Below are positions 18,962 to 45,219 of a stretch of 64,000 bases of DNA, one piece after another. The position numbers were made by a program, and so were the translations under genes. Every line of letters starts with the position of its first letter. The first letter of the stretch is position 1. Source of the stretch: Janibacter limosus NBRC 16128 (GTDB taxonomy: Bacteria > Actinomycetota > Actinomycetes > Actinomycetales > Dermatophilaceae); NCBI RefSeq assembly GCF_001570985.1, contig NZ_BCSS01000008.1, positions 1 through 64,000 on the forward strand, written 5' to 3'. The notes beneath the pieces were generated by a model that saw only the letters and a list, made by a program, of their open reading frames with translations, was not told the DNA's origin and made no database searches.

Positions 18962-19026
18962 GGGTCGCGAGACTATCGACCTCACACATCCGGGTCGCGG
19001 TGCGTCCATGGGACATGATCGACATC

Positions 19027-19551: not shown

Positions 19552-19561
19552 GGAGTCCCGC

Positions 19562-20721: not shown

Positions 20722-20750
20722 TTGAACTGGGGTTCAGATGACTCTAGGCT
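20722..20750 (+). promoter_or_regulatory. Promoter with TTGAA-N6-TTCAA operator before the lactonase gene
   Basis: The -35 box TTGAAC (20722-20727) and -10 box TAGGCT (20745-20750) are spaced by 17 nt. The -35 box is the left arm of an imperfect inverted repeat, TTGAA-CTGGGG-TTCAG (20722-20737), whose right arm lies inside the promoter spacer. The same 5-6-5 repeat recurs at four other intergenic regions of the island. A bound repressor here would block RNA polymerase. The gene start is 30 nt downstream of the -10 box. Confidence 0.7.
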
Positions 20751-20779: not shown

Positions 20780-21742
20780 GTGGTGGCTGTACCGACCGTG
20801 ACCGGGAGCGTCGACTCCGCAGACCTGGGTGCAGTGCTCGCCCACGAGCACATCTTCGTCCTCGGGGAGGAGTACCGGCAGAACTTCCAGGGCGACTGGG
20901 ACGAGGACGCCAAGGTCGCCGAGGCGGTCGCCGAGCTCGCGCCGCTGCCGGACCTGGGCATCAACACGATCCTCGACCCCACCGTCCTGGGCCTGGGCCG
21001 CTACCTGCCGCGGGTGCAGCGCGTGGCCGAGCAGGTCGGCGTCAACATCGTCGTCGCGACCGGCTTGTACACCTACAACGAGATCCCCTTCCAGTTCCAC
21101 TACACGGGCCCGGGTCTGCTCTTCGACGTGCCCGAGCCGCTCACCGAGCTCTTCCTCAAGGACCTCACCGAGGGCATCGCCGACACCGGTGTCCGCGCGG
21201 GCTTCCTCAAGTGCGCGATCGAGGAGCAAGGCCTGACGGCGGGCGTCGAGCGGGCGATGCGTGCGGTCGGCGCGGCCAGCGCCCAGAGCGGCGCCCCGAT
21301 CACCGTGCACACCAACCCGCACACCGGCTCGGGCCTCGTGGCGCAGCGGGTCCTGGCGGAGGAGGGTGCCGACCTGGCCAAGGTGGTCATCGGGCACAGC
21401 GGAGACACGACGGACGTCGACTACCTGTGCGAGGTTGCCGATGCCGGGTCCTACCTGGGGATGGACCGCTTCGGGCTCGATGTGCTGCTGCCCTTCGAGG
21501 ACCGGGTCGCGACGGTGCTGGAGCTGCTGCGCCGGGGCTACGCCGAGCGGATGGTGCTCGCTCACGACGCGTCGTGCTTCATCGACTGGTTCGACCCCGA
21601 GGCCAAGCGCCAGGTCGTGCCGCGGTGGAACTATCGGCACATCAGCGAGGACGTCCTGCCCGCCCTGCTCGAGGGCGGCGCCACGCAGGAGGACATCGAC
21701 ACGATGCTCGTGAAGAACCCGCGCAGGTACTTCGAGGGGTAG
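20780..21742 (+). CDS. Phosphotriesterase-family protein, probable lactonase
   Basis: This is a binuclear metal hydrolase of the amidohydrolase superfamily (320 residues). All ligands of the family are seen: His22 and His24 in AHEHIF, the carbamylatable Lys144 in FLKCAIE, His177 in ITVHTN, His206 in VIGHSGD and Asp263 in LAHDAS. Most bacterial members hydrolyse lactones; activity on organophosphates is usually side activity. GTG 20780 is chosen over ATG 20738 because AAGGAG lies 8 nt before it. The promoter carries the island operator, so the gene probably belongs to the same regulon as the acyl-CoA genes. The suggestion that it opens gamma- or delta-lactones to hydroxy acids is inference. 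Confidence 0.85.
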   Translation: MVAVPTVTGSVDSADLGAVLAHEHIFVLGEEYRQNFQGDWDEDAKVAEAVAELAPLPDLGINTILDPTVLGLGRYLPRVQRVAEQVGVNIVVATGLYTYNEIPFQFHYTGPGLLFDVPEPLTELFLKDLTEGIADTGVRAGFLKCAIEEQGLTAGVERAMRAVGAASAQSGAPITVHTNPHTGSGLVAQRVLAEEGADLAKVVIGHSGDTTDVDYLCEVADAGSYLGMDRFGLDVLLPFEDRVATVLELLRRGYAERMVLAHDASCFIDWFDPEAKRQVVPRWNYRHISEDVLPALLEGGATQEDIDTMLVKNPRRYFEG

Positions 21743-22384: not shown

Positions 22385-23194
22385 TCAGCGGGCGAAGACC
22401 GGGGGACGCTTCTCGACGAAGGCGCGCGCGGCCTCGACGTGGTCGCCCGTCAGGCCGCAGGCCTTGTGCCGGGGTACCTCGGCGGCCATCGACTGCGACA
22501 GCGTCTGGTGAGGGGCCTCGCGCAGGTTGCGCTTGATGTTGGCCAGCGCGAGGCCGGGGCCGTCGGCGAGCTGGGTCGCCAGCGTGCGGGTGCCCTCCTC
22601 GAGCTCGTCCTCGGGCACGAGCCGGGTGAGCAGGCCGAGGTCCAGACAGGCCTGCCCGTCGAGGCGCGGGTTGAGCAGCATCAGCTCACGGGCGCGTGCC
22701 GGTCCGACGAGTCGGTCCAGCAGCCAGGCCACGCCGAAGTCTCCGGAGAGGGCGACCGTGGCAAAGGCCGTCGCGACGACGGTGCGCGGTGTGCCGATGC
22801 GCAGGTCGGTGGCGAGGGCGAGGCCCAGGCCCGCGCCGGCAGCAGCGCCCGGGAGGGCGGCGATCGTCGGCTTGGTGAAGGCGTGGAGGCGGCCGACGGT
22901 CAGCTCCTGGTGGCGCAGCTGCTCGGCCACGGCAGCCGGGTCGACCTCGGTGGCGCCGCCCCCTTCGCCCCCGTCGGCGTCGAACTGCTGGACATCGCCG
23001 CCGGCGCAGAAGGCACGACCGGCGCCGGTGAGCACCAGGACACGCACTGCCGGGTCCTCGTCGGTCTGCGCGAGGAGCTCGCCGAGCCGCTCGATCATCG
23101 GGACCGACATCGCATTGCGCCGGTCGGGTCGGTTGAGGGTGATGGTGGCGATGCCATCGGTGAGGTCGTACAGGACGTGGTCGGTGTCGGTCAC
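22385..23194 (-). CDS. Enoyl-CoA hydratase/isomerase
   Basis: A crotonase-fold protein of 269 residues. It has the oxyanion-hole segments AFCAGGDVQQF and PGAAAGAGLGLALATDLRIG. In the second half LSGDFGVAWLLDRLVG occupies the position where hydratases carry a catalytic Glu; here the region reads GDFG, so isomerase or another crotonase activity cannot be excluded. GTG 23194 has AGGAG upstream and overlaps the stop of the MFS gene (GTGA), so the two form an operon. It may hydrate the enoyl-CoA made by the acyl-CoA dehydrogenases of the island. Confidence 0.88.
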   Translation of the reverse strand: MTDTDHVLYDLTDGIATITLNRPDRRNAMSVPMIERLGELLAQTDEDPAVRVLVLTGAGRAFCAGGDVQQFDADGGEGGGATEVDPAAVAEQLRHQELTVGRLHAFTKPTIAALPGAAAGAGLGLALATDLRIGTPRTVVATAFATVALSGDFGVAWLLDRLVGPARARELMLLNPRLDGQACLDLGLLTRLVPEDELEEGTRTLATQLADGPGLALANIKRNLREAPHQTLSQSMAAEVPRHKACGLTGDHVEAARAFVEKRPPVFAR

Positions 23195-24534
23195 GAGATC
23201 TCCTGGGGTTGGGGGTCGGGTCGGTGGGTCGAGATCGGACGGGCGAAGGCGAGTGCAGCCACTGCGGGGAGGGCCGCCAGGACGAGGAGGGCGCGGGGGA
23301 ACCCGATGGCGTCCCCGAGGCCCCCGACGGTGGCGGCCCCGAGGCTGCCCCCGAGGAGGAAGACGAGGGTGAGCAGGCCGAGCGCTCCACCGCGGGTGTG
23401 CACGGGGACGGAGTCGGCGACGAGCGCCGTCATCGCCGGCTGCCCGAGGCCGAAGGAGAGCATGAGCAGCAGGGTCGCGGCGATGAGCGCTCCGGGGTTG
23501 ACCAGGGCCGAGCCGATCGCTGCGAGGACCACCGCGCTGGTGACTCCCGTCGTGGCGAGCAGCTGGCTGCGGGTGGTGCCGAAGCGGATGAGTGCAGGGC
23601 CCGTGATGCGGGGGGCGACGACCCCCAGGGCGGCGCATGGCAGGAGCAGCAGCCCGACCTGGGTGCCCGACCAGCCGTGGGCGATGAGGACGGTGGGCAC
23701 GGCCACGAGCATCCCGAACCACGCGGACGGCAGGCTCGCGGCAGTCAGCAGACTGAGCCGCACGGTGCGGTCGCGCACGAGTGCTGCCGGGATGACACCG
23801 TGCGGTCGACGGCGCACGCGCAGGACGGCCGCCGGAGCGCTCGCCAGCAGCAGGAGGAGGCCGACGAGCGCGGTGGTGCCGCCGAGCGTCGCCACCTGCA
23901 GGGACAGGACGGCACCGGTGGCGGCGCCGGCCACGAGCAGGGCGCCGACGGGGTCGAGCGTCGCTCCGGGCTGACGGTGGGTCGGCAGGTCGCGCCAGAC
24001 GAGGGGGACCACGAGGAGGGTGAAGACCGGGATGGCCACGACGGGCCGCCACCCGAAGGGGTCGACGAGCAGGGCCCCTGCGACGGGCCCGAGAGCATTG
24101 ATCGTGGCCCCGACGCCGGAGTACGTGGCCAGGGCCCGGGCTCGGCCGTCACCGGCGAAGAGGGCCTGGATGGCGGCGAGCGTCAGGGCCGGCACCGCCG
24201 CTGCCCCCACGCCCTGCAGGGTCCGCGTGAGGATGAGCGCGGGAAGGGAGTCCACGAGCGCACCGGCGCAGGCTGCGGTGACCATGACGGACATGCCGAT
24301 GAGCAGGGGCAGGCGGATGCCGAACATGTCACCGAGGCGGCCGAAGACCGCACTGCCGACCGCGAGCGCGAGGGAGTAGCAGCTGACGACGAGCGCGGCG
24401 CGGCCGGTCGTCAGCTCGAGGTCCTGGGCGAGGGCGGGGAGGGCGACGGCGACCGCTGCACTCCCCAGGCCGGTGATGCCGAAGAGCACGGCGATGGCGC
24501 TCGCGAGGGCCCCGCGGTGCGGTGGGGGTGGCAA
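23191..24534 (-). CDS. MFS transporter (DHA2-like, 12-14 helices)
   Basis: A major facilitator of about 447 residues. Helices start with SAIAVLFGITGLGSAAVAVALPALAQDL. The MFS loop motif is seen in GSAVFGRLGDMFGIRLPLLIG and motif C-like glycines in LQGVGAAAVPALTLAAIQALF. Uptake of an acid or export of a metabolite is possible. The start is uncertain. The annotated TTG (24534) has no ribosome-binding site, whereas GAGGAG (24560-24555) is perfectly spaced to an in-frame ATC at 24549. It is coupled to the enoyl-CoA hydratase gene and is divergent from the HAD gene across a shared operator region. Confidence 0.85.
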   Translation of the reverse strand: MPPPPHRGALASAIAVLFGITGLGSAAVAVALPALAQDLELTTGRAALVVSCYSLALAVGSAVFGRLGDMFGIRLPLLIGMSVMVTAACAGALVDSLPALILTRTLQGVGAAAVPALTLAAIQALFAGDGRARALATYSGVGATINALGPVAGALLVDPFGWRPVVAIPVFTLLVVPLVWRDLPTHRQPGATLDPVGALLVAGAATGAVLSLQVATLGGTTALVGLLLLLASAPAAVLRVRRRPHGVIPAALVRDRTVRLSLLTAASLPSAWFGMLVAVPTVLIAHGWSGTQVGLLLLPCAALGVVAPRITGPALIRFGTTRSQLLATTGVTSAVVLAAIGSALVNPGALIAATLLLMLSFGLGQPAMTALVADSVPVHTRGGALGLLTLVFLLGGSLGAATVGGLGDAIGFPRALLVLAALPAVAALAFARPISTHRPDPQPQEIS

Positions 24535-24577: not shown

Positions 24578-24608
24578 ACTTGAATCTGAATCTAAGTTCA
24601 AGTATACC
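24578..24608. promoter_or_regulatory. Divergent promoter/operator region between MFS and HAD genes
   Basis: The 16-bp element CTGAA-TCTAAG-TTCAA (24586-24601) matches the island consensus TTGAA-N6-TTCAA with one change. It lies in a larger inverted repeat, ACTTGAA...TTCAAGT (24578-24603). On the plus strand TTGAAT (24581-24586) and TATACC (24603-24608) form a promoter with a 16-nt spacer. On the minus strand TTGAAC is followed by a weaker -10 candidate TCTGTG at 17 nt. Repressor binding would silence both directions. Confidence 0.68.
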
Positions 24609-24642: not shown

Positions 24643-25320
24643 ATGACGACGATGTCACCCGATCCGACCCCGGTCGACGCGCGCCCGGCGCAGGCGCTGC
24701 TCATCGACTTCGGGGGAGTGCTCACGGCCCCGATCGGCGCTGCCTTCCGGGCGCTCGGCGCCGACGCCGGACTCGGGCCCGACGACGCGCTGCGCGTGCT
24801 CGCCACCCATGAGGGGGCGCGTGTGGCGCTGTCCGAGCACGAGGTCGGCCGGCTCGACGACGAGGGCTTCGAGGATGCCTTCGCGGCCGCGCTCGTCGAG
24901 GCCGGTGGCCGGATCGAGCCCCGGGGCCTGCTGGCCGGCCTGGCCACGCACATGGACCTGGACGAGCCGATGATCGACCTCGTCCGGCAGGCACGTGCCG
25001 CGGGTGTCCCCGTCGCGCTCGTCTCCAACTCGTTGGGTCGCGACTGCTACGCCCGGGTCGACCTCGACGAGCTCTTCGACGTCACGGTCATCTCGGGGCA
25101 GGTCGGCATACGCAAGCCCTCCCGCGAGATCTACCGCATCGCCTGCCGACGACTCGGCGTCGAGCCCGAGCACTGCGTGCTCGTCGATGACCTCGAGCAC
25201 AACCTCGTCGGCGCCGCGCGCCTCGGGATCCGCGGCATCCTCCACCGCACCGCTGCCGAGTCCATCCCTCGTGTCCGCGAGGCCCTCTCCCTTCCCACCC
25301 CGACCGGCGCCACCCGCTGA
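24643..25320 (+). CDS. HAD-superfamily hydrolase, ACAD10 N-domain-like
   Basis: A haloacid-dehalogenase-fold phosphatase of 225 residues. Motif I is LIDFGGVLT with nucleophile Asp22. The usual second Asp of DxD is Gly, which is also the form seen in the HAD domain of ACAD10-like proteins. Motif II is VALVSNS, motif III has Lys in GIRKPSREIY, and motif IV is LVDDLEHN. ATG 24643 has AAGGAG before it. It heads an operon with an acyl-CoA dehydrogenase (39 nt later) and an APH-type kinase. HAD, ACAD and APH are exactly the three domains of animal ACAD10, so it probably acts on a phospho- or hydroxyacyl metabolite. The substrate is unproven. Confidence 0.85.
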   Translation: MTTMSPDPTPVDARPAQALLIDFGGVLTAPIGAAFRALGADAGLGPDDALRVLATHEGARVALSEHEVGRLDDEGFEDAFAAALVEAGGRIEPRGLLAGLATHMDLDEPMIDLVRQARAAGVPVALVSNSLGRDCYARVDLDELFDVTVISGQVGIRKPSREIYRIACRRLGVEPEHCVLVDDLEHNLVGAARLGIRGILHRTAAESIPRVREALSLPTPTGATR

Positions 25321-25359: not shown

Positions 25360-26580
25360 ATGTTCGAACTCAGTGAACGCGGCCAGGACTACCGCGACCG
25401 CCTGCTCACCTTCATGGACGAGCACGTCTACCCCGCGGAGAGCGTCTACCGCGAGCAGATGCGCGCCTCCGGCAACGCCAACCACCACCCGCAGGTGCTC
25501 GAGGACCTCAAGGCGGAGGCGCGCAGCCAGGGCCTGTGGAACCTCTTCCACCCGCACACCGAGTGGGGGCCGGGCCTGACCAACCTCGAGTACGCCCACC
25601 TCGCCGAGATCACCGGACGCAGCATCGAGATCGCTCCCGAGGCGATCAACTGCAATGCGCCCGACACCGGCAACATGGAGGTGCTGACCCTCTTCGGCAC
25701 CGAGGAGCACAAGGAGAAGTACCTCAAGCCCTTGCTCGCCGGCGAGATGGCCTCGGCCTTCGCCATGACCGAGCCGGCGGTCGCCAGCTCGGACGCGACC
25801 AATGTCGAGACGCGCATGGAGCGCGACGGTGACGAGTACGTCATCAACGGCCGCAAGTGGTGGACCTCCAATGCCCTGCACCAGAACTGCAAGGTCATGA
25901 TCGTCATGGGCAAGACCGACCCGGACGCCCCGACGCACCGCCAGCAGTCGATGATGGTCGTCCCGATCGACGCCCCGGGCGTCACGATCGTGCGTGGCCT
26001 GCCGGTCTTCGGCTACATGGACCGTGAGGGTCACGCCGAGGTCGTCTTCGACAACGTGCGCGTGCCGCGCGAGGCCCTGCTCGCCGGTGAGGGCGACGGC
26101 TTCATGATCAGCCAGGCCCGCCTCGGGCCGGGCCGCATCCACCACTGCATGCGCGCCATCGGTGTGGCCGAACGCGCCCTGGACCTGATGATCGACCGCG
26201 CCCAGTCCAGGATCACCTTCGGTGAGCCCGTGGCCAACCGGTCCAACATCATGGACTGGGTCGCCGAGGCCCGCATCGAGATCGAGATGGTCCGACTGCT
26301 CACCCTCAAGGCCGCGCACATGATGGACACCGTGGGCAACAAGGTCGCCCGCACCGAGATCGCCGCGATCAAGGTGGCCGCACCGCAGATGGCCCTGAAG
26401 GTCCTCGACCGGGCCATCCAGGTGCACGGCGGAGGTGGCGTGAGTGACGACTTCCCGCTGGCCATGTGGTACGCCCACATGCGGACCCTTCGTCTGGCCG
26501 ATGGCCCCGACGAGGTGCACAAGATGACGATCGCCCGGCGCGAGTACCGCCGCCGCAGCCCGGAGTGGGGCAAGAAGTGA
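25360..26580 (+). CDS. Acyl-CoA dehydrogenase, ACAD10/ACAD11 type
   Basis: A flavoprotein of 406 residues that closely follows the ACAD10/11 subgroup. It has [48 protein letters not shown] and the end motif [11 protein letters not shown]. Ordinary acyl-CoA dehydrogenases of the MCAD type have E-G-T near this point; here D-G-P-D is found. Proteins of this subgroup that work with an APH kinase (human ACAD11, bacterial LvaC) act on 4-phosphoacyl-CoA and release phosphate to give an enoyl-CoA. The kinase gene overlaps by GTGA and the HAD gene precedes it, so the same chemistry is likely here. ATG 25360 follows AAAGGATC. Confidence 0.92.
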
Positions 26581-27593
26581 TCGAGGGCGTCGACACGACG
26601 GCGATGACGGCGTGGATCAGCGCGCGGGTCGACGTCGAACCGCCGTTGACCTACGAGCGGGTGGGGTTGGGGCAGTCCAACCTCACCTACCTCGCCACGG
26701 ATGCGAAGGGGGTGCGCCTGGTCCTGCGGCGCCCCCCGATGGGGGAGCTGCTCGCGTCGGCGCACGATGTCGCACGGGAGCACCGGATCCTCTCGGCGCT
26801 CCAGTCGAGCGATGTCCCCCTTCCCGTCGTCCACGGGCTGTGCGAGGACCCGGCAGTCGCCGACCAGCCGGTCCTCGTCGTCTCCTTCGTCGACGGGCTC
26901 GTGCTCGATGACCGGAGCGACGCGGAGGGCCTCGCCCCGCCAGCCCGCCATGCCGTCGGGCTCTCCCTCACGGACACCCTCACCCGCATCCATGCCGTCG
27001 ACCTCGAGCGGGTCGGTCTGCACGACCTGGCGAGCCACAAGCCCTATGCCGCGCGGCAGCTGCGCCGCTGGGCGGGGCAGTGGGAGCTCTCCCGCACGCG
27101 GGAGCTGCCCGACCTGGAGCGACTGACCGACCGGCTGCAGGAGCGCGCGCCGGCGCCGGGCGAGATCAGCCTCGTCCACGGCGACAGCCACCTGCGCAAT
27201 GTCATCGTCGACCCGGACGACGCGCAGGTGCGGGCGATCCTCGACTGGGAGCTGGCCACCCTCGGCGACCCGCTCGCCGATCTCGGGACCCTGTTGGCGT
27301 ACTGGCCCCAGGCGGGCGATCCGCCGAGCATGCGCTTCGATGCCTCGACGGTCGAAGGCTTCGCCACCCGCGACGAGCTCGTCGAGCACTATGCGCAGGT
27401 GGCCGGTCGCGATGTCACGGCCGTGCCCTTCTGGCACGGGTTGGGGCTGTGGAAGCTCGCGATCATCCTCGAGGGAGTGCGCCGTCGTCAGCTCGACGAC
27501 CCGCGCAACCTCACGGCGGTGGGCGCGATCCCCGCGGAGGCCGTGGACGAGCTCGTCGCGTGTGCGCACGTCGTGCTGGACGACGCGCATTAG
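26577..27593 (+). CDS. APH-family kinase, probable hydroxyacyl-CoA kinase
   Basis: A phosphotransferase of the aminoglycoside-phosphotransferase fold (338 residues). The nucleotide-binding loop is [10 protein letters not shown] followed by VLRRPP. The catalytic Brenner-type motif is [10 protein letters not shown] (His201, Asp203), and the metal-binding Asp lies in [17 protein letters not shown]. This version of the motifs, with LRRPP and [14 protein letters not shown], is that of ACAD10/11-linked kinases and LvaA, not of antibiotic-resistance enzymes. GTG 26577 overlaps the stop of the acyl-CoA dehydrogenase gene. I infer phosphorylation of a hydroxyl on an acyl-CoA, probably at C4. ATG 26604 is a possible alternative start. 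Confidence 0.87.
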
Positions 27594-27594
27594 C

Positions 27595-28284
27595 ATGTCC
27601 GGCATGGCCAGCGACGCAGACACCACCACGGAGGTCCCCGATCTCGTCGACGCCGAGCACCTCGGCACCCAGCCGCAGACGGCGCGCGGCAAGCGCACCC
27701 GGGAGGCGCTCATCGCCGCCGCCCGCACGATCTTCGAGCGGGATGGCTTCGTCGACTCACGCCTCGTCGACATCGCGGCAGAGGCCAAGTGCTCGATCGG
27801 CAGCTTCTACACGTGGTTCGACAGCAAGGACGAGGTCTTCGCCGCCGTCCTGCACCAGGCACAGAGCGAGATGCTCCACCCCGGGACCAGCCGCATGGAG
27901 GCATCGGACGACCCGGTTGCGATCATCACGGCGAGCAACCGCGCCTACTTCGAGGCCTACCGGCGCAATGCCCGGCTCAACCAGCTCCTCCTGCAGGTCG
28001 CGACCGTCGACCCCAAGATCCGCGCCCTGCGGCAGGCCAGGGCCAATGCTTTCGTCATGCGCAATGCCAAGGCGATCGCCGAGCTGCAGGCCCGCGGGTT
28101 GGCGGACCGTGGCGTCGACGCGACGACGGCGGCGATGGCGCTGTCCGGCATGGTCTCGCGCCTGGCGCAGGACGCCTTCGTCCACGAGTTCCTCCTCGCA
28201 CCCGTCGACGAGCTCGTCGACGCGGCCACCCGCATGTGGACCAATGCGCTCGGGCTCACGCAACCGGAGCTGCGCGCGGACTGA
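27595..28284 (+). CDS. TetR-family regulator of the acyl-CoA cluster
   Basis: A repressor-type protein of 229 residues. The N-terminal HTH is clear: RGKRTREALIAAARTIFERDGFVDSRLVDIAAEAKCSIGSFYTWFDSKDEVFAAVL at about 31-86. The ligand-binding domain is helical. It starts 2 nt after the kinase gene (ATG 27595, or 27604 in frame) and is probably cotranscribed with it. It is the only TetR gene in the catabolic island, so it is the prime candidate to bind the six TTGAA-N6-TTCAA sites, and through the site before the HAD gene it would regulate its own operon. The ligand might be an acyl-CoA; this is inference. Confidence 0.88.
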   Translation: MSGMASDADTTTEVPDLVDAEHLGTQPQTARGKRTREALIAAARTIFERDGFVDSRLVDIAAEAKCSIGSFYTWFDSKDEVFAAVLHQAQSEMLHPGTSRMEASDDPVAIITASNRAYFEAYRRNARLNQLLLQVATVDPKIRALRQARANAFVMRNAKAIAELQARGLADRGVDATTAAMALSGMVSRLAQDAFVHEFLLAPVDELVDAATRMWTNALGLTQPELRAD

Positions 28285-28360: not shown

Positions 28361-29146
28361 TCACCGGGCGATGGTGACCCCACCGTCGACGGTGAGGGTG
28401 CTGCCGACGACGTAGTCGCCGGCGTCCGAGGCGAGATAGATCGCCGCGGCAGCCATGTCCTCGGAGCGACCGATGCGTCCGGACGGGATGCTGCCGGAGA
28501 TCTCGTCCCCGTGGTCGCGCGCCTCCTTGTTCATATTGGAGGCGAAGGCGCCGGGCGCGATCGCGCTGACGATGATGCCCTCGGGGGCGAGCGTGACCGC
28601 CATCCGCTTGGTCAGGTGCACCACGCCTGCCTTGCTCGCGTGATACGAGTACGTCTCCATCGGGTTGAGGGAGAGCCCGTCGATGGACGCGATGTTGATG
28701 ACCTTGGCCAGGTGGCCGCTGCGCTGGTGCCCGGCGAGCAGCAGGCCCTTGGCGGCCTGGGTGAGGAAGAAGGGCGCCTTGACGTTGAGGTCCATGACCT
28801 TGTCCCAGCCGCTCTCGGGGAAGGTGTCGAAGGCTTCGCCCCATGCCGCGCCGGCGTTGTTGACGAGGATGTCGAGGTGGCTCTCGTGCTCGCCGAAGGC
28901 TTCGAGCAGGGCCGTGATGCCGGCGGTCGTCGAGACATCGCCGGGCAGGGCGACACAGCGGCCCTCGCCGAACTGCTCCGTCAGCTCAGCGGCCGTCGCC
29001 CGGCAGGCCTCCTCCTTGCGCGCGGTGATGTAGACCGTCGCGCCCTGGCTGAGCAGCCCCTCGGTGATCATCCGACCGATGCCGCGGGAACCGCCGGTGA
29101 CGAGGGCGACGCGGGCGTCGAGGGAAAAGAGTGCAGGGATGTCCAT
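28361..29146 (-). CDS. Short-chain dehydrogenase/reductase
   Basis: A classical SDR of 261 residues. The cofactor loop is TGGSRGIG, the NNAG motif is in LVNNAGAAWG, and the catalytic triad elements are Ser in INIASIDGL and YSYHASK. The C-terminus ends GSTLTVDGGVTIAR, as in 3-oxoacyl reductase-like SDRs. An Ala/Arg after the glycine loop (ITARKEE) suggests preference for NADPH. ATG 29146 is preceded by GAAGGACC. It is expressed from the divergent region carrying two copies of the island operator. It may oxidise or reduce a hydroxyacyl-CoA, a role played by LvaD-type SDRs in levulinate catabolism. Confidence 0.88.
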   Translation of the reverse strand: MDIPALFSLDARVALVTGGSRGIGRMITEGLLSQGATVYITARKEEACRATAAELTEQFGEGRCVALPGDVSTTAGITALLEAFGEHESHLDILVNNAGAAWGEAFDTFPESGWDKVMDLNVKAPFFLTQAAKGLLLAGHQRSGHLAKVINIASIDGLSLNPMETYSYHASKAGVVHLTKRMAVTLAPEGIIVSAIAPGAFASNMNKEARDHGDEISGSIPSGRIGRSEDMAAAAIYLASDAGDYVVGSTLTVDGGVTIAR

Positions 29147-29187: not shown

Positions 29188-29226
29188 CTTGAATCAGGGT
29201 TCAAGAGTAGTTGAATGTGGATTCAC
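29188..29226. promoter_or_regulatory. Double TTGAA-N6-TTCAA operator in a divergent promoter region
   Basis: Two copies of the 16-bp element stand in tandem: TTGAATCAGGGTTCAA (29189-29204, perfect arms) and TTGAATGTGGATTCAC (29211-29226, one change), 22 bp apart centre to centre, about two helical turns. For the minus-strand SDR gene, TTGAAC is followed after 17 nt by TACGGT, a good promoter overlapping the first copy. The plus-strand promoter for the MDR gene is less clear. The tandem, in-phase copies suggest cooperative binding. Confidence 0.7.
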
Positions 29227-29276: not shown

Positions 29277-30278
29277 ATGACCCGGACCTCGCAGGAGATC
29301 CGCCTCGCCGCCCGTCCGCACGGCCGCCCCGACGAGAGCACCTGGGAGCTCGCCACGAGCGAGGTGCCCGAGCCCGGGCCGGGGGAGTTCCTCGTCGAGA
29401 TGCAGCAGATCTCGCTCGACCCCGCCATGCGCGGCTGGCTCAACGACGTGCGCTCCTACCTGCCGCCCGTGAAGATCGGCGCGGTCATGCGTGCCTTCGG
29501 TGCCGGGACGGTCATCGCCTCGCAGCACGACGACTTCGCCGTCGGCGATGTCGTCAGTGGGACCTTCGGCGTGCGCGAGTACGCCATCTCCAGCGGGAAG
29601 GGAGTGGCTCACCTCGACCTCGACCTCGCCCCGATGAGCACCTGGCTGGGCGCGCTCGGCATGCCCGGCATGACCGCGTGGTTCGGTCTCGAGGACGTGG
29701 CTCGAGCGAAGCCGGGTGACACCGTGCTCGTCTCCGCCGCGGCCGGCGCCGTCGGCAGCACCGTCGCCCAGCTGGCCAAGGCCAAGGGGTGTCGGGTCAT
29801 CGGCATCGCCGGTGGCCCGGACAAGGTGGACTGGCTGCGCGAGCTCGGGCTCGACGAGGTCATCGACCGCCGAGAGGGAAACCTGCTCAAGCAGGTGCGC
29901 GCGGCCGCGCCCGATGGCGTGGACGTCTACTTCGACAATGTCGGTGGCGAGTCGCTCGACGCGGCCCTGGCCAATCTCGCGCACGGCGCCCGGATCGCCA
30001 TCTGCGGTGCCATCTCGACCTACAACGACGAGACCCTCGCCGAGGGCCCGCGCCGCTACATGGCGCTGCTCGTCTTCCGCGCGAGCATGCAGGGCTTCGT
30101 CGTCATGGACTACGAGGACCGCTACGGCGAGGCGATCTCCGGCATCGGCGACCTGATCCGCGACGGCCGCTTCGTCGCGACGGAGACCGTCCTCGACGGC
30201 GGCGTCGCCGCCTTCCCCGAGGCCCTGCTCGGCCTCTTCGACGGGGTCAACACCGGCAAGCTCCTCCTCCAGCTCTGA
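29277..30278 (+). CDS. NADP-dependent oxidoreductase (MDR, leukotriene-B4-dehydrogenase type)
   Basis: A medium-chain reductase of 333 residues from the zinc-free group of enone/alkenal reductases. Diagnostic stretches are LDPAMRGWL near residue 50, GMPGMTAWFGLEDVARAKPGDTVLVSAAAGAVGSTVAQLAKAKGCRVIG, and YFDNVGGESLDAAL. The expected activity is reduction of a double bond conjugated to a carbonyl, or oxidation of a hydroxyl next to it. ATG 29277 follows CAGGAG. It is divergent from the SDR gene across the double operator and followed 19 nt later by another MDR gene. Confidence 0.88.
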   Translation: MTRTSQEIRLAARPHGRPDESTWELATSEVPEPGPGEFLVEMQQISLDPAMRGWLNDVRSYLPPVKIGAVMRAFGAGTVIASQHDDFAVGDVVSGTFGVREYAISSGKGVAHLDLDLAPMSTWLGALGMPGMTAWFGLEDVARAKPGDTVLVSAAAGAVGSTVAQLAKAKGCRVIGIAGGPDKVDWLRELGLDEVIDRREGNLLKQVRAAAPDGVDVYFDNVGGESLDAALANLAHGARIAICGAISTYNDETLAEGPRRYMALLVFRASMQGFVVMDYEDRYGEAISGIGDLIRDGRFVATETVLDGGVAAFPEALLGLFDGVNTGKLLLQL

Positions 30279-30297
30279 TCCACCGAAGGGAACCACC

Positions 30298-31251
30298 ATG
30301 CGCGCCATCCACATCTCCACCCTCGACGGACCCGAGGCCGTCGAGGTCGTCGACCTGCCCGACCCCAGCAACGACAAGCTCGTGACGATCGACGTCAAGG
30401 CGGCCGGTGTGGCCTTCCCCGAGCTGCTGCAGACCCGGGGGCTCTACCAGATGAAGCCGGACCTCCCCTTCGTCCCCGGGGCCGAGGTCGCCGGGGTCGT
30501 CTCGGCTGCCCCCGAGGGCAGCGGGCTGTCCGTCGGTGACCGCGTGGCGGCGCTGACCCTGCTCGGAGGCTTCGCCGAGAAGGCGCTGGCCCGTCCCGAC
30601 CTGACCTTCGCCCTGCCCGACGAGGTCTCCTTCGAGGAGGCGGCGTCCTTCACCTTCAACTACGCGACGGTCTACTTCGCGCTCGTCGAGCGTGGTGGCC
30701 TGGCCGAGGGGGAGACCGTCCTCGTCCACGGTGCGGCCGGCGGCATCGGGACCGCGGCCATCCAGATGGCCAAGGCCTTCGGGGCGAGCAAGGTCATCGG
30801 GGTCGTCTCCACCGAGGCGAAGGGGGAGATCGCCCGGGCCGCAGGGGCGGACGAGGTCGTCATGGCCGACGGCTTCCTCGACGCGGTCGGCAAGGCCAGT
30901 GTGGACATCGTCGTCGACCCGGTCGGCGGCGACCGCTTCACCGACTCCCTGCGCAGCCTCAAGGAGCACGGACGACTGCTCGTCATCGGCTTCACGGCCG
31001 GCGAGATCCCGCAGGTCAAGGTCAACCGCCTGCTGCTCAACAATGTCTCCGTCGTCGGAGTCGGCTGGGGCGCCTACGCGATGTCCCGTCCGGGACACGT
31101 GGGCAAGGAGTGGGACGCGATGCTCCCGCACCTGCGCAGCGGCGCCCTGCGTCCCGTCGTCGGGGAGACCCACCGGCTCGAGGGCGCGGCCGCGGCCCTG
31201 GCCTCCCTGGAGGGTCGGACGGTGACCGGCAAGGTCGTGCTGGTGCCATGA
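30298..31251 (+). CDS. NADPH:quinone oxidoreductase-like MDR protein
   Basis: A second zinc-free MDR protein (317 residues), similar to quinone oxidoreductases. It begins MRAIHISTLDGPEAVEVVDLP, has VPGAEVAGVV, the cofactor motif HGAAGGIGTAAIQMAKAFGASKVIG and VDPVGGDRF. ATG 30298 has GAAGGGA upstream. Its stop overlaps the thioesterase start (ATGA). The substrate is unknown; within an acyl-CoA cluster, enoyl-thioester reduction is one possibility. Confidence 0.87.
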   Translation: MRAIHISTLDGPEAVEVVDLPDPSNDKLVTIDVKAAGVAFPELLQTRGLYQMKPDLPFVPGAEVAGVVSAAPEGSGLSVGDRVAALTLLGGFAEKALARPDLTFALPDEVSFEEAASFTFNYATVYFALVERGGLAEGETVLVHGAAGGIGTAAIQMAKAFGASKVIGVVSTEAKGEIARAAGADEVVMADGFLDAVGKASVDIVVDPVGGDRFTDSLRSLKEHGRLLVIGFTAGEIPQVKVNRLLLNNVSVVGVGWGAYAMSRPGHVGKEWDAMLPHLRSGALRPVVGETHRLEGAAAALASLEGRTVTGKVVLVP

Positions 31252-31751
31252 GCCCGGCGCTGCCCTCGATCGAGGAGATCACTCAGGTCCCCGAGTCCCG
31301 CCGTGCCGTCGCCGGCCCGGAGTGGGAGGACGAGAACGGCCACGTCAACGTCGCGCACTTCTACGCCTTCCACCTCGCCGCCTCCGAGACGGCGCTGCAG
31401 CAGATCGGTCTCGACGACGACTACCGCGAGCGCAGCAGGTGCGGTGTCTTCAGCATGGAGCAGCACTTCCGCTTCTACGACGAGGTGCGCATCGGTCAGG
31501 AGATCTCCGCCCACGTGCGCTGGCTGGACCGCGGCAACAAGGTGTTCCACGGCATCTCGGTGATCGTCAACCATGACACCGCAACGGTCGCCAACACCCT
31601 CGAGGTCCTCGAGGGGCACGTCGACCTCGTCACCCGCCGCGCCGCTGCCTTCCCCGAGGGGCTCGCGCAGCGCGTCGACGCCGAGATCGCCGTCCACCGG
31701 GCCCTGCCGTGGAGCCTGCCGCTTGCCGGCAGCATGGGAGTGCGCCGCTGA
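31248..31751 (+). CDS. Hotdog-fold acyl-CoA thioesterase
   Basis: A 4HBT-type hotdog protein of 167 residues. The catalytic segment is DENGHVNVAHFYAFHLAASE, where Asp/Glu and the HVN turn correspond to the D-x-x-G-H-V-N motif of 4-hydroxybenzoyl-CoA-type thioesterases. It would release CoA from an acyl-CoA and so could recycle CoA or drain intermediates. It overlaps the MDR gene by ATGA and is the last gene of its operon: an 18-bp hairpin follows. Confidence 0.83.
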   Translation: MSPALPSIEEITQVPESRRAVAGPEWEDENGHVNVAHFYAFHLAASETALQQIGLDDDYRERSRCGVFSMEQHFRFYDEVRIGQEISAHVRWLDRGNKVFHGISVIVNHDTATVANTLEVLEGHVDLVTRRAAAFPEGLAQRVDAEIAVHRALPWSLPLAGSMGVRR

Positions 31752-31819: not shown

Positions 31820-32290
31820 TCAGGCGCTGAAGCGGCCGATCGACTCCGCGACGAGGATCGGCTTGTCGATGCCGTCGGCCTCGACGGTCAGCTTCGTCAC
31901 GACGTTGACCTGGCCGGGAGCGGTCTCCTCCACCTTGGTCAGCTCGGCCCGCAGACGGATGCGCGAGCCCACGGGCAGCGGGTGGATGAAGCGCACCTTG
32001 TCGTAGCCGTAGTTGAGGCTGTGGGCGAAGCCGTCGAAGGCCATCAGCTCCTCGAGGAAGGCCGGCGTGCGCGAGAGGCTGTAGAGGCCGTGCGCGATCG
32101 TCGAGCCGAAGGGGGAGTCGGCTGCCTTCGCGGGGTTGACGTGGATCCACTGGTGATCGCCGGTGAGCTCGGCGAAGGCGTCGATCTTGGCCTGGTCGAC
32201 GACGTGCCACTCGGTGGGGCCGATCTCGACGCCGACGAGGTCCTTGAGGTCTTGCACGGACGCTGGGCGGTGCTGGGTGGTCTGGGTCAT
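31820..32290 (-). CDS. MaoC-type (R)-enoyl-CoA hydratase
   Basis: A hotdog dehydratase of 156 residues. The hydratase-2 motif is clear: FAELTGDHQWIHVNPAKAADSPFGSTIAHGLYSLS, with the catalytic Asp and His in GDHQWIH. It would hydrate trans-2-enoyl-CoA to (R)-3-hydroxyacyl-CoA, which an FabG-like reductase can oxidise. The FabG gene lies directly divergent, across a promoter region with the island operator, so the two are probably co-regulated. A ribosome-binding site AAGGAG precedes ATG 32290. Confidence 0.9.
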   Translation of the reverse strand: MTQTTQHRPASVQDLKDLVGVEIGPTEWHVVDQAKIDAFAELTGDHQWIHVNPAKAADSPFGSTIAHGLYSLSRTPAFLEELMAFDGFAHSLNYGYDKVRFIHPLPVGSRIRLRAELTKVEETAPGQVNVVTKLTVEADGIDKPILVAESIGRFSA

Positions 32291-32331: not shown

Positions 32332-32360
32332 TTGAACTTGAAGCCGGGTTCAAGTATGTT
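32332..32360. promoter_or_regulatory. Divergent promoter with TTGAA-N6-TTCAA operator (MaoC / FabG)
   Basis: The element TTGAA-GCCGGG-TTCAA has perfect arms (32338-32353). On the plus strand TTGAAC (32332-32337) and TATGTT (32355-32360) are spaced by 17 nt, so the operator fills the promoter spacer. On the minus strand TTGAAC followed after 17 nt by TACGGT forms the promoter of the MaoC gene, with the same boxes as at the SDR gene. This is the best-formed site of the set. Confidence 0.75.
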
Positions 32361-32398: not shown

Positions 32399-33160
32399 AT
32401 GACCACAGACCAGCAACGCGTCGCCGTCGTCACCGGTGCAGCCCGAGGCATCGGCGCCGGTGTCGCCCGCCGACTGGCCGCAGACGGGATGGCCGTCGCC
32501 GTCCTCGACCTCGACGAGTCGGCCTGCGTGCCCGTCGTCGAGTCGATCACCCAGGAGGGGGGCCGGGCACTGGCCGTCGGCGCCGATGTCTCCGACCCGG
32601 AGCAGGTGGAGGCAGCGGTCCAGCGCATCGCCGACGAGCTCGGCGCACCGACGGTGCTGGTCAACAACGCCGGCATCATCCGCGACAACCTCATCTTCAA
32701 GATGAGCGTGGAGGACTGGGACTCGGTCATGGCGGTGCACCTGCGTGGTGCCTTCCTCATGACCAAGGCCTGCCAGGCCTACATGACGCAGGAGCGTCAC
32801 GGCCGCATCGTCAACCTCTCCTCCACCTCGGCCCAGGGCAACCGCGGCCAGGTCAACTACTCGGCGGCCAAGGCCGGCATGCAGGGCCTGACCAAGACCC
32901 TGGCGATCGAGCTGGGCAAGTTCGGCGTCACGGCCAACGCGATCGCCCCGGGCTTCATCGAGACCGAGATGACCCAGGAGACCGCGGAGCGCATCGGCAT
33001 CGACTTCGAGGAGCTGAAGAAGATGGCCCGCGAGCAGGCGCCCGTCGCCCGCACCGGTCGGCCCGAGGACATCGCCCACGCCGTCTCCTTCTTCGTCAGC
33101 GAGGGCGCCGGCTTCACCACCGGACAGGTCCTCTACGTCGCCGGCGGGCCGTGCGACTGA
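32399..33160 (+). CDS. FabG-like 3-oxoacyl/3-hydroxyacyl-CoA SDR
   Basis: An SDR of 253 residues with the pattern of 3-oxoacyl-ACP/CoA reductases: TGAARGIGAGVARRLAADG, LVNNAGIIRDNLIFKM, catalytic NLSSTSAQGNRGQVNYSAAKAG, and PGFIETEMTQ. The Asp at the end of strand 2 (VLDLDES) suggests NAD rather than NADP preference, fitting oxidation in catabolism. It opens what looks like a 12.7-kb same-direction operon that runs to the second acyl-CoA ligase. Its stop overlaps the next SDR gene (TGATG). Confidence 0.9.
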   Translation: MTTDQQRVAVVTGAARGIGAGVARRLAADGMAVAVLDLDESACVPVVESITQEGGRALAVGADVSDPEQVEAAVQRIADELGAPTVLVNNAGIIRDNLIFKMSVEDWDSVMAVHLRGAFLMTKACQAYMTQERHGRIVNLSSTSAQGNRGQVNYSAAKAGMQGLTKTLAIELGKFGVTANAIAPGFIETEMTQETAERIGIDFEELKKMAREQAPVARTGRPEDIAHAVSFFVSEGAGFTTGQVLYVAGGPCD

Positions 33161-33975
33161 TGGGCACCGCGATGCAGATCAAGGACAAGGTTGCGATCGT
33201 CACCGGTGCCGCCGGTGGCATCGGGGCAGCGCTCGCCGAGGCCCTCGTCGACGGGGGCGCCCACGTCGTCATCTCTGACATCGACGAGGCACGGCTGGCC
33301 GCGACGGCCGAGCGCATCGGGGCGGTCGCCGTCGCCGGTGACGCCTCGAGCGAGGACGTCATCGCGCGGATGATCGCGACGGCGCAGGTGAGCTTCGGTC
33401 CCGTCGACCTCTTCTTCGCCAACGCCGGCATCGGGGACGGGCTGGGCATGTCCGCCACCGATGAGCAGTGGCAGCAGGCGATCGACATCAACGTCCTGGC
33501 CCATGTGCGCGCCGCCCGGGCGCTCGTGCCGCAGTGGGTCCAGCGCGGCTCGGGATACTTCGTGACCACCGCCTCTGCCGCAGGCCTGCTCACGCAGATC
33601 GGCTCGGCCACCTACTCGATGACCAAGCATGCGGCCGTCGGCTTCGCCGAGTGGCTCGCCGTGACCTATGGCGACGACGGCATCGGCGTCAGCTGCCTGT
33701 GTCCCATGGGTGTCGACACGGAGATGCTCCGGTCGGGGATGACCTCCGGTGGTGGCACCGGGGGCAAGGTCGCCGCCGCTGCCGTGACCGGCGCGGGCGA
33801 GGTGCTGACCCCCCGGGAGGTCGCTGACCAGGTGCTTGCCTCGGTCGCGGAGGGCACCTTCCTCATCACTCCGCACGCCGACGTGCGCGAGTTCATGCGG
33901 CGCAAGGCCGCAGACCACGACCGGTGGATCCACGGCATGCAGCGCTACCAGCGACACCTGATGGGAGAGGTCTGA
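33160..33975 (+). CDS. Short-chain dehydrogenase/reductase
   Basis: An SDR of 271 residues. It shows TGAAGGIGAALAEALVDGG, an Asp-ending strand 2 (ISDIDEA; NAD-type), FFANAGIGDG instead of the standard NNAG, Ser in TTASAAGLL and the active-site YSMTKHA. The C-terminal 40 residues (REFMRRKAADHDRWIHGMQRYQRHL) are longer than in FabG. ATG 33160 overlaps the FabG stop; ATG 33172 is also in frame. It overlaps the acyl-CoA ligase gene by TGATG, so it is translationally coupled on both sides. The substrate is unknown. Confidence 0.87.
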   Translation: MGTAMQIKDKVAIVTGAAGGIGAALAEALVDGGAHVVISDIDEARLAATAERIGAVAVAGDASSEDVIARMIATAQVSFGPVDLFFANAGIGDGLGMSATDEQWQQAIDINVLAHVRAARALVPQWVQRGSGYFVTTASAAGLLTQIGSATYSMTKHAAVGFAEWLAVTYGDDGIGVSCLCPMGVDTEMLRSGMTSGGGTGGKVAAAAVTGAGEVLTPREVADQVLASVAEGTFLITPHADVREFMRRKAADHDRWIHGMQRYQRHLMGEV

Positions 33976-35501
33976 TGACGAACGGAGCCAGCCTGATCTG
34001 GACCTGGGCCGACCGGACGCCCGACGCCATCGCCGTGCGCGACGGAGAGCGTTCGTGGACCTTCGCGCAGCTGCGCGCCGGCGTCCGGGGCGCCATCGAG
34101 GAGCTCACCGAGCGGGGGGTGCGTCCCGGGGACCGGGTCCTCATGGTCGTCCCGACGTGCGCGGAGTTCGTCCTCACCTATCACGCGCTGCTCGCCATCG
34201 GCGCGACCGCCGTCACCGTCAACCCGCTGTGCACCCAGCGCGAGCTGACCCACTTCGTCGACGACGCCGGTTGCACCTTCGCGATCGGCTGGCACGAGGA
34301 CGACGGCCCCGTGGCGGGGACGGCGTCCGCGGCAGGCATCGCGCTGTGGGTGCTCGAGCCCGGCTGCGTGCGCTCCTCCGACGAGGGCATCGGCCTCGCC
34401 GACGTGACCGCCGACGATGCCGCCGTGCTGCTCTACACCTCCGGGACGACCGGCGCCCCCAAGGGAGCCGTCCTCACGCACGGCAACCTGCTGTCCTGCG
34501 GTGCGGCCTACGCCGAGGCGCTGGAGGTGACGGGCGAGGACCACATGGGCACCGCCCTTCCCCTCTTCCACGTCTTCGGCCAGGCCTCGGTCATGTTCAC
34601 GACCTTCACCTTCGGCGGCGGCATGACCTTGCAGCGGCCCTTCGACCCCGCGGGGCTGCTGCAGCTGGCGGCGGACCAGGAGCTGACCTCGCTCGCCGGC
34701 GTGCCGACGATGTGGAATGCCATGCTCCACGCCGAGACGGACCTGACGGCGGAGGACCTGTCGCACCTGCGCCTGGCCTGCTCCGGCGGTGCCGCGCTGC
34801 CCCTCGAGGTCGGCAAGGCCTTCCAGGAGCGCTTTGGCGCGGTCGTCCTCGATGGCTACGGGCTGAGCGAGACGACCGGCGCGGCGACCGTCAACCGGGC
34901 GATCCACCCGCGCAAGGAGATGAGTGTCGGGCGGGCCGTCGACGGCTGCGCGCTCGCCATCTTCGACGAGCACGGCAGCCAGCTGCCTCCGGGCGAGGTC
35001 GGCGAGGTCGCGATCCGTGGTCCGGTCGTCATGCGCGAGTACTGGAACAAGCCCGAGGCCACCGCTGCGGTACGCCACGGCGACTGGTTCCTCACCGGCG
35101 ACATCGGCCGGATGGACGATGACGGTGACCTGTGGATCGTCGACCGCAAGAAGGACCTCGTGATCCGAGGCGGGTACAACGTCTACCCGCGGGAGGTCGA
35201 GGAGGTGCTCTACGGGCACCCGGACATCCTCGAGGCGGCCGTCATCGGGGTGCCCGACGAGCGTCTCGGCGAGGAGATCGCTGCGGTCATCACGCCGCAG
35301 CCGGGCCGGAGCATCGACCCCACCGAGCTGCGCATCTGGCTCGAGGAGCGGGTCGCGGCCTACAAGGTCCCGCGGATCTACCAGCTGGTGGAGGCGTTGC
35401 CCAAGGGCGCCACCGGCAAGATCCTCAAGCGGGCCATCGACCGCGGGGACATCGCGACCACCGGTGAGCGGCCCGCCCGGGCCACCACCCCCACCACCTG
35501 A
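33975..35501 (+). CDS. Acyl-CoA synthetase (AMP-forming)
   Basis: An adenylate-forming ligase of 508 residues that activates a carboxylic acid to its CoA ester. Core motifs are [20 protein letters not shown] (phosphate loop), [44 protein letters not shown] and the C-terminal [11 protein letters not shown] with the adenylation Lys. The acid is not identifiable; the length suits medium/long-chain FadD-like ligases. It is coupled to the SDR before it, and an acyl-CoA dehydrogenase follows 16 nt later. Confidence 0.9.
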
Positions 35502-35517
35502 GCGAAGGGAGCGACCC

Positions 35518-36735
35518 GTGGACTTCACGCTGGACGCCAGGACCACCGAGCTGCAAGAGCAGCTGACCGCCTTCATGGACGAGCACGTCTACCCCATCGA
35601 GGCGGCATTCCAGGAGCAGATCGACGCGGCCCCCGACCGCTGGTCGCCGCCGCCGATCATCGAGCCGGCCAAGGAGGCCGCCCGCAGCCAGGGGCTGTGG
35701 AACCTCTTCCTCCCCGGCGAGGACGGCGCCGGCCTGACCAACCTGCAGTACGCACCGCTGTGCGAGATCCTCGGGCGCAGCCTGCACATCGCCCCCGTGG
35801 TGACCAACTGTGCCGCGCCGGACACCGGCAACATGGAGGTGCTGAACATGTTCGGCACCGACGAGCAGAAGGAGCAGTGGCTCACGCCCCTGCTCGCCGG
35901 CGAGATCCGCTCGGCCTTCGCCATGACCGAGCCTCGGGTGGCCAGCTCCGACGCGACCAACATCGAGACCTCGATCGTGCGCGACGGCGACGAGTACGTC
36001 ATCAACGGCCGCAAGTGGTACATCTCCGGCGCGATGAACCCCAACGCCAAGGTGCTCATCCTCATGGGCAAGACGGACCCCACGGCGGACCGTCACAAGC
36101 AGCAGTCGATGATCCTCGTGCCGCGGGACGCTCCCGGTGTGGACGTGCGTCGCGGGATGAAGGTCTTCGGGTACGACGACCGCGACCACGGCGGCCACGC
36201 CGAGATCGACTTCACCGACGTGCGGGTCCCGGTGAGCAACCTCATCGGTGAGGAGGGCAGCGGCTTCGCCATCGCCCAGGCCCGGCTCGGTCCCGGCCGG
36301 ATCCACCACTGCATGCGCCTGATCGGCATCGCCGAGCGTTCCCTGGAGCTGATGGTCGAGCGCGCCGCCAGCCGGGTCGCCTTCGGCAAGCCCCTGTCGG
36401 AGCAGGGCGTGATCCGTGACTGGATCGCGGAGTCGCGCGTGCGGATCGAGCAGCTGCGGCTGCTCACCTTCAAGGCCGCTTGGCTGATGGACACGGTCGG
36501 CAACAAGGGCGCCCACACGGAGATCCAGGCGATCAAGATCGCCGCGCCGGCCACCGTCGAGTGGATCCTCGACAAGGCCGTCCAGGTGCACGGCGCCGGC
36601 GGCCTCAGCCAGGACTTCCCGGTCGCCGAGTGGTACGCCCAGGTGCGCACCCTGCGCTTCGCCGACGGCCCCGACGAGGTGCACAAGAACGCCCTCGCCC
36701 GCCACGAGATCCGGAGGATGACCGCACATGTCTGA
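35518..36735 (+). CDS. Acyl-CoA dehydrogenase, ACAD10/ACAD11 type (second copy)
   Basis: A flavoprotein of 405 residues of the same subgroup as the dehydrogenase at 25.4 kb. It has [50 protein letters not shown], the strict-subgroup [14 protein letters not shown] and [14 protein letters not shown] 35518 is used, with GAAGGGAG before it. This copy has no adjacent kinase or HAD gene, so it would have to share the kinase encoded at 26.6 kb or act on ordinary acyl-CoA. Its stop lies 7 nt inside the following acyl-CoA dehydrogenase gene. Confidence 0.9.
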
Positions 36736-38964: not shown

Positions 38965-39019
38965 GTGATCGACTCGATCCACCCCCTTCGTCCGACCTCT
39001 CTCACCCACAGGAGTGACC

Positions 39020-40216: not shown

Positions 40217-40249
40217 CCGTCACCACCCACCATCCTCAAGGAGCTGCAC

Positions 40250-43435: not shown

Positions 43436-43452
43436 CGCAAAGGAGCGCGCGC

Positions 43453-45129: not shown

Positions 45130-45187
45130 CCGTCCAGTAGCACCGGGTGGTCCTTGACAGGGGAAACCACACCCCCACAACATGAAC

Positions 45188-45210
45188 CCGAATTAGCCTT
45201 CAAGTACAGG
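45188..45210 (+). promoter_or_regulatory. TTGAA-N6-TTCAA-like operator before the second MFS gene
   Basis: The element CCGAA-TTAGCC-TTCAA (45188-45203) matches the island consensus with two changes in its left arm. It stands between a candidate promoter (TTGACA 45154-45159, CAACAT 45178-45183, spacer 18) and the ribosome-binding site AGGAG of the MFS gene. A second reading has ATGAAC (45182-45187) and TACAGG (45205-45210) with 17 nt between, the layout of the other sites, but this would leave almost no leader. It is the weakest site of the set. Confidence 0.5.
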
Positions 45211-45219
45211 AGATCACAG

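Follow-up and report, generated by a model that had tools for sequence, protein, structure and literature searches.

The regulator closest in its working to the one considered here is FadRSa of Sulfolobus acidocaldarius, a TetR repressor that, in the available part of its description, controls one 30-kb fatty-acid cluster through four sites, recognizes a 16-bp dyad, binds as one or two dimers depending on the operator and is released by acyl-CoA (PMC6449355). One TetR, one cluster, several sites and a 16-bp dyad are the points of likeness, as far as that part of the source goes; FadRSa differs in being archaeal, in sharing only 18% identity in structural alignment and in governing a different gene set. 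QacR, CgmR and CprB are dimer-of-dimers TetR repressors with long operators in which repeats overlap, the CprB site being 22 bp long in the portion of the source at hand (PMC4150764). A long operator of overlapping repeats is what they have in common with our locus, where two-dimer binding would be expected by analogy; they differ in serving drug efflux or antibiotic production. QsdR of Rhodococcus erythropolis is TetR-like, adjoins lactonase and acyl-CoA ligase genes and senses a lactone; it differs, on the accessible text, in controlling a small operon (qsdA, qsdC), with two predicted palindromes as its operators (PMC6262395). On the enzymatic side, the lva enzymes and ACAD10/11 phosphorylate 4-hydroxyacyl-CoA and eliminate the phosphate to give enoyl-CoA, and the roles of the catalytic Asp, Arg and His of ACAD11 have been described (PMC11342911, PMC12440821; the latter for the residues; both in the parts available). 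The kinase and acyl-CoA dehydrogenase (ACAD) route is shared with our island, and TetR control of it is not described in the available parts of these two papers.

The window, by which we mean the whole 64,000-nucleotide stretch of Janibacter limosus NBRC 16128 that was analyzed, holds a catabolic island in which, unlike in ACAD10/11, HAD, kinase and ACAD are each encoded by a gene of their own, and these genes run together with a TetR gene (Table 1). We propose that this TetR is a local, dedicated regulator that represses a 4-hydroxy-acid/lactone regulon and, by way of the HAD promoter, also itself, and assign this reading a probability of about 0.87; it is built on the sites, the operator structure, the promoter overlap and the co-occurrence of operator and TetR, all read from sequence. 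Among the matches listed and in the open-access literature, which leaves most subscription journals outside, we found no earlier description of the regulator or its operator.

Table 1. Putative operators and genes of the island (positions in the window)
Feature	Position	Strand	Remarks
Putative operator, full type, TTGAATCTGAATCTAAGTTCAA	24580..24601	+	Matrix score 42.7; exact 22-bp pattern
Putative operator, full type, TTGAACTTGAAGCCGGGTTCAA	32332..32353	+	Matrix score 48.1; exact 22-bp pattern
Putative operator, 5-6-5 type, exact TTGAA-N6-TTCAA	29189..29204	+	Matrix score 15.1
Putative operator, 5-6-5 type, one mismatch	29211..29226	+	Matrix score 13.5
Putative operator, 5-6-5 type, one mismatch	20722..20737	+	Score <8 with the 28-column matrix
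Putative sixth, weaker operator	45182..45203	+	Before second MFS gene, likely start 45220; score 24.8
Phosphotriesterase-family protein, probable lactonase	20780..21742	+	Best PDB match 4if2
MFS transporter, divergent from HAD gene	23191..24534	-	
HAD-type phosphatase-like protein	24643..25320	+	First gene of the HAD-ACAD-APH-TetR run
ACAD11-like acyl-CoA dehydrogenase	25360..26580	+	8v3u, E 2.3e-136
APH-type kinase	26577..27593	+	PF01636, 151.1 bits; ACAD11 kinase region, E 9.2e-36
TetR-family regulator	27595..28284	+	229-aa open ORF; Pfam TetR_N and EthR_C
Short-chain dehydrogenase (SDR)	28361..29146	-	
Two MDR-type reductases and a 4HBT thioesterase-like gene	29277..31751	+	After the 29189/29211 pair
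MaoC-like protein	31820..32290	-	
SDR, second SDR-like frame (from 33160), AMP ligase, three ACADs, thiolase	within 32399..46566	+	
Biotin carboxylase, AMP ligase, MFS (from about 45220)	rest of 32399..46566	+	

The protein scores 36.2 bits against TetR_N (PF00440; cut-off 24) and 39.7 bits against EthR_C (cut-off 27) in Pfam, and its structural model has nine helices at a mean pLDDT of 84.5, with alpha2 at residues 57-63 and the recognition helix alpha3 at 68-74. With its TetR_N domain and all-helical fold including a C-terminal ligand/dimer domain, it is a member of the TetR family. The best structural match of the model is EthR of Mycobacterium tuberculosis (Z 19.1 over 195 residues), which has EthR_C in common with it at 20% identity; FasR and SaFadR rank lower, and the DNA complex of FadRSa, 6en8, is among the matches at Z 16.4. 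EthR controls a monooxygenase gene. Identity with the ScbR equivalog NF041196 was rejected, the score of 49.8 bits falling below the curated cut-off of 150. Orthology to QsdR was considered because the island holds a lactonase; the QsdR structure 4ZA6 is neither among the 40 phmmer matches of the window TetR (E<=0.001) nor among the best 60 of its 208 profile-search matches.

Two statements of the preliminary description concern the gene itself. The first, that it is the only TetR gene of the island, is borne out: a TetR_N profile search of the genome gave 17 matches, 16 of them above the cut-off, with 27595-28284 the sole match on its 103.8-kb contig, and when 30 proteins encoded from 17.9 to 50.8 kb were compared with Pfam, just one further DNA-binding regulator came up, an ECF sigma factor whose gene, at 19478, is not part of the island. 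No second relative of the window TetR was found in this genome at E<=1e-30. The second, that the gene begins 2 nt after the kinase gene, is correct as start minus end; the kinase stop ends at 27593, the ATG is at 27595, and one base (27594) lies between. Just 5' of the island, at 18946-20619, the ECF sigma factor gene is flanked by two proteins with an O6-methylguanine methyltransferase DNA-binding domain.

The candidate sites in the window are of two types, full (24580, 32332 and the weaker 45182) and 5-6-5 only (20722, 29189 and 29211). The first full site, which includes the earlier-noted 24586-24601, lies between the divergent MFS and HAD genes, and the second, including 32338-32353, between the divergent MaoC and SDR genes. 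The 29189 site has counterparts in the same position in Janibacter and Dietzia loci, and the pair that it forms with 29211, 22 bp away, recurs in several Janibacter and two Dietzia loci; the 20722 site has an exact counterpart before the same gene in one related locus (L027) and none with up to one mismatch in two others (L024 and L025). In the window the motif TTGAA-N6-TTCAA occurs 2 times exactly, 5 times with up to one mismatch and 11 times with up to two, against shuffle means of 0.01, 0.06 and 1.55. The whole 3.38-Mb genome has two exact copies, both in the island, and 12 places with up to one mismatch, 5 of them in the island. Shuffles, the backward pattern and other spacers rule out a chance origin of the sites. 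Of six sites originally reported, five stand with at most one mismatch, two of them exact; the sixth, which must be the one at 45188, has two mismatches, though it is conserved in relatives. Its score of 24.8 compares with a best of 4.6 in 30 mononucleotide-shuffled windows, and a matrix match (17.4-26.2) precedes the orthologous MFS gene in all four other genomes read (G101, G144, G132 and G075), with the exact motif there as well in G101, G144 and G075. No matrix match of 8 or more lies between 24580 and 29183, in agreement with the earlier remark that no copy stands directly before the TetR gene. Elsewhere in this genome, two one-mismatch motifs, G000:C6:65470-65485 (locus L007) and G000:C9:80823-80838, both contain TTGAACACCTGT; the former stands just before another TetR gene, and the pair is probably the operator of that other TetR.

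The structure of the operator emerged from 80 fetched loci that encode TetR relatives 50-97% identical to the window TetR. They contain 18 exact N6 sites (mean of 0.05 in 20 dinucleotide shuffles; 2 for the backward pattern) and 104 with up to one mismatch (4.5 shuffled; 8 backward), while TTGAA-N12-TTCAA has 53 exact matches and every other spacer from 0 to 14 has 0 or 1. When all palindromic 5-mer dyads with spacers of 0-20 were scanned in 42 non-redundant loci, drawn from the 80 at TetR identity below 85%, TTGAA-N12-TTCAA ranked top by z-score, with occurrences in 28 loci and 0 in ten mononucleotide shuffles; the highest raw counts belong to CG-rich dyads. An alignment of 47 distinct N12 sites yielded the consensus TAnTTGAANNTGA[AC]NYCRGNTTCAAnTA, with an inner GA in 47/47, a feature that was used for orienting the sites and not demanded. 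In its ideal form, TTGAAnTTGAmkTCAAnTTCAA, the element consists of two 16-bp 5-6-5 palindromes offset by 6 bp; the fourth half-site is perfect in Nocardia exalbida (L041, TTGAACTTGACGTCAAGTTCAA) and degenerate in the window operators. As the entire operator, the symmetric 5-6-5 repeat of the preliminary description is ruled out by the stronger N12 spacing in the 80 loci: the predicted operator is 22-28 bp long, with a 22-bp core, and the 5-6-5 repeat is part of it. That core, with its two overlapping 5-6-5 repeats and 6-bp offset, has the make-up of a dimer-of-dimers operator, and a length of 22-28 bp in place of 16 bp changes the design of a binding test.

A 28-column matrix built from sites of the same 80 loci that it then scored gave matches of 10 or more in 62 of them and none, over the stretch read, in the other 18; matches of 15 or more were present in 39 of the 42 non-redundant loci. 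Mapped genes make up 37% of the bases, but 0 of the 84 matches at this higher threshold fall inside one (margin of 60 bp); a mapped start no more than 200 bp away was seen for 64 matches and not for the other 20. The genes behind them encode MaoC, SDR, MDR, ACAD, PTE, HAD, AMP ligase, MFS, TetR and other proteins.

The position of the sites suggests how a bound protein would act. We read the outer TTGAA as a -35 box and tested the hexamer 17 bases on against TAnnnT, which was found on 36/56 gene-facing sides vs 18/50 other sides; the TA of this -10 is at the same time the TA that flanks the operator, and the -10 therefore cannot be counted as evidence separate from the operator. In the window this arrangement points towards the SDR (TTGAAC-17-TATGTT) and, on the other strand of the same 32332 site, MaoC (TTGAAC-17-TACGGT), towards the lactonase-like gene from 20722 (TTGAAC-17-TAGGCT), towards the minus-strand SDR from 29189 (TTGAAC-17-TACGGT) and towards HAD from 24580 (TTGAAT-17-TATACC, in which the last base is not T). 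No clear -10 at 17 bp was seen at the reductase side of 29211, the divergent MFS or the 45182 site. Since an outer half-site can double as a -35 box whose -10 follows 17 bp on, RNA polymerase would be kept off by a bound repressor, and TetR binding would be predicted to block polymerase at most window promoters. The earlier suggestion that autoregulation runs through the HAD promoter is consistent with these positions, the strong 24580-24601 site covering the -35 and -10 of the HAD-ACAD-APH-TetR run.

It could be argued from the same resemblance of TTGAA to a -35, and from the same 36 of 56 gene-facing sides, that the TTGAA/TTCAA elements are merely the -35 boxes of divergent promoters and no regulator site at all. 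We consider this very improbable, because a promoter needs neither the inner GA (47/47, in sites whose orientation was chosen by it) nor a fixed 22-bp symmetry, because genomes that lack the TetR have promoters yet rarely the pattern (15/372), and because the reductase side of 29211 and the 45182 site are without a good -10 at 17 bp.

Co-location within loci fetched by their TetR is circular, and we therefore took the genome-wide pattern and a comparison that starts from the dehydrogenase as the main evidence that the dedicated TetR reads these sites. In a class sample of 394 genomes, 22 encode a TetR relative with 49% identity or more, a lower bound since the best candidates, up to seven per genome, were scored. 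The strict 22-bp pattern is present in 13 of these 22 vs 15 of the 372 other genomes (Fisher p 1.8e-11, for genomes that share ancestry and so are not independent events), and in the 13 genomes none of the 19 sites is more than about 12 kb away from the TetR gene. Eleven of the 15 carriers without the TetR come from three families, their genomes measuring 1.2-1.9 Mb, a distribution suggestive of chance for those 11; it occurs in 0/42 genomes whose TetR match at E<=1e-30 is below 49% identity. Each of the nine TetR-positive genomes without the strict pattern scores at least 15 with the matrix somewhere in the 19-20 kb that were read, a score absent from 7.75 Mb of mononucleotide shuffles; this check covered 9 TetR-positive, 7 TetR-negative and 4 Janibacter-genus stretches. 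Orthologues of the ACAD11-like dehydrogenase (at least 70% identity) are found in at least 27 of the 394 genomes, again a lower bound, with up to four best candidates per genome scored. Where dehydrogenase and TetR (at least 49%) occur together the operator is present in 20/20 (13 strict, 7 by a matrix match of 15 or more), vs 1/7 where the dehydrogenase occurs without the TetR (p 2.4e-5). The one exception, G365, has a gene for a 40%-identical TetR some 1.6 kb from its site, a TetR that at E 2.5e-30 narrowly missed the cut; in the other six there is no TetR relative better than E 4.9e-13, all TetR candidates having been scored in these seven genomes in departure from the candidate limit. In these comparisons the predicted operator goes with the TetR and not with the catabolic genes.

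A regulator encoded elsewhere in the genome might instead bind the sites, with the TetR controlling something else or merely competing. The 17 TetR_N matches of this genome would supply candidates, and two TetR-positive genomes are without an exact site, but we regard such a regulator as decidedly unlikely: in the dehydrogenase genomes it would have to account for an operator in 20/20 with the TetR and in 0/6 of those with no relative better than E 4.9e-13, for the 40% relative that accompanies the site in the seventh TetR-less genome, and for sites that stand right beside the TetR gene in other settings (G384, G463 and G460), and it would need to be gained and lost together with the TetR. The central claim of the preliminary description, that the TetR protein regulates the TTGAA-N6-TTCAA sites, is thus supported, at the level of sequence, by co-occurrence and co-location.

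The 18 loci without a matrix match of 10 or more were followed further by searching ten of their genomes whole, which gave 24 rows, 12 of them fetched and mapped. In 7 of the ten an exact 22-bp site precedes the dehydrogenase orthologue, with an SDR-like gene between in 5 of the 7. Four Rhodococcus genomes (G537-G540) have their sole exact site on one contig and their single TetR copy (E<=1e-25) on another, and G542 likewise has its TetR copy on a different contig from the exact site before the dehydrogenase. Gene and exact site on different contigs in five genomes mean that the link is not one of mere neighbourhood, and they suggest that the TetR can act in trans. A second TetR copy in G541 adjoins the dehydrogenase site, and another exact site there has no mapped gene nearby; in G544 a single operon may have been broken up by contig ends, and G535 has one-mismatch sites only. 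The two TetR-positive genomes with no exact operator genome-wide, G536 (L056) and G543 (L086), keep dehydrogenase, kinase and TetR together in one locus, and their TetR may read another sequence.

Residue-base comparison gives further backing to the pairing of TetR and operator. Residue 55, just before alpha2 in the model, has the highest mutual-information z of the positions tested, followed by 220 and 185 in the C-terminal domain: in 34 of the 42 non-redundant loci (site score of at least 25), Ser in 19 loci goes with TGAA in all, Thr in 5 loci with TGAC or TGAG in all, and Ala in 10 loci with both bases. A weak link is seen at residue 68, where the recognition helix begins: loci with Ile there have A in 20/20 cases and those with Ser have C in 15/15, while Thr and Ala are each found with several bases. 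The tree has few independent changes at residue 55, and both residues are confounded by descent. The match of residue 55 to the TGAA/TGAC base is the cleaner of the two and lends the pairing support, not proof.

What the regulon would do is suggested by its genes. The sites precede, directly or as likely operon heads, those for the lactonase (start taken as GTG 20780, in an ORF that opens at 20738), MFS, HAD, ACAD11-like dehydrogenase and APH kinase, and also SDR and MDR reductases, MaoC, ligases, thiolase and biotin carboxylase; for this count 32399..46566 is assumed to be one operon. By its catalytic Asp region and its Arg/His helix in the 8v3u alignment, the island ACAD is of the ACAD11 type: compared as regions, LADGPDEVH and a further 12-residue stretch are kept, a second ACAD11 entry, 8v3v, having N for D in LADGPDEVH. 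The island is best read, from its gene content, as serving 4-hydroxy-acid and lactone catabolism, and we infer that the inducer is an intermediate of this pathway. Biotin-carboxylase genes about 53-54% identical to that of the island adjoin operator sites in Gordonia and Nocardia loci, the site standing before the gene in L061 and after it in L050, L059 and L068, so that lineages differ in which genes the regulon holds and in how these are arranged.

Binding, repression, stoichiometry, operon borders and ligand are what we infer beyond these observations, and we envision the following scenario. The TetR would bind the semi-palindromic consensus given above, that is TTGAA-N6-TTCAA with a weaker copy shifted by 6 bp, probably as two dimers at full sites, as QacR and CprB do, and as one dimer at sites with the 5-6-5 repeat only. 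Full sites lie on core promoters, where the bound repressor would shut out polymerase, often in both directions, and the six sites would together form one switch for lactonase, transporters, the HAD/ACAD11-like/kinase core, reductases, ligases, beta-oxidation and carboxylase. As the last gene of the HAD run, the TetR would repress itself. Release would come from 4-hydroxyacyl-CoA, its phosphorylated form or a lactone. Some TetR proteins are activators, and one that is named as such in NCBIfam, FasR, is among the structural matches; a TetR that binds these sites and activates, or that works with a second regulator, is nonetheless unlikely, for the full sites overlap -35 and -10 and do not lie upstream of them, which favours repression.

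Control of the island by its own TetR is very probable as far as sequence can tell, and as gene regulation it is an ordinary, if well-supported, case. Across many actinobacteria, Gordonia, Rhodococcus and Nocardia among them, it ties one regulator to a precise operator and a probable 4-hydroxy-acid/lactone regulon. Where this TetR is encoded, more members of the regulon can be predicted with the operator matrix, and the TetR-operator pair is a candidate biosensor for hydroxy-acyl-CoA or lactones. More speculatively, and with the doubt weighing clearly heavier than the belief, the TetR subfamily could be a dedicated sensor of the phosphorylated 4-hydroxyacyl-CoA (bacterial ACAD10/11) route, with a promoter-fused operator and 4-hydroxy- or 4-phospho-acyl-CoA as inducer. 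If so, the same TTGAA half-sites would be both repressor contacts and -35 boxes of divergent promoters, and the inducers would be a ligand class without TetR precedent in the compared literature, as far as the available parts of those sources go. The subfamily is found in at least the Intrasporangiaceae, Dermatophilaceae, Dietziaceae, Gordoniaceae, Nocardiaceae, Nocardioidaceae and Propionibacteriaceae. In other families, TetR relatives that share 74-78% identity with that of the window are encoded in L026 and L028 (Dietzia massiliensis), L029 (Dietzia cinnamea), L031 (Microtetraspora glauca) and L032 (Nocardioides carbamazepini). One Dietzia genome carries two copies, and the island may have spread horizontally.
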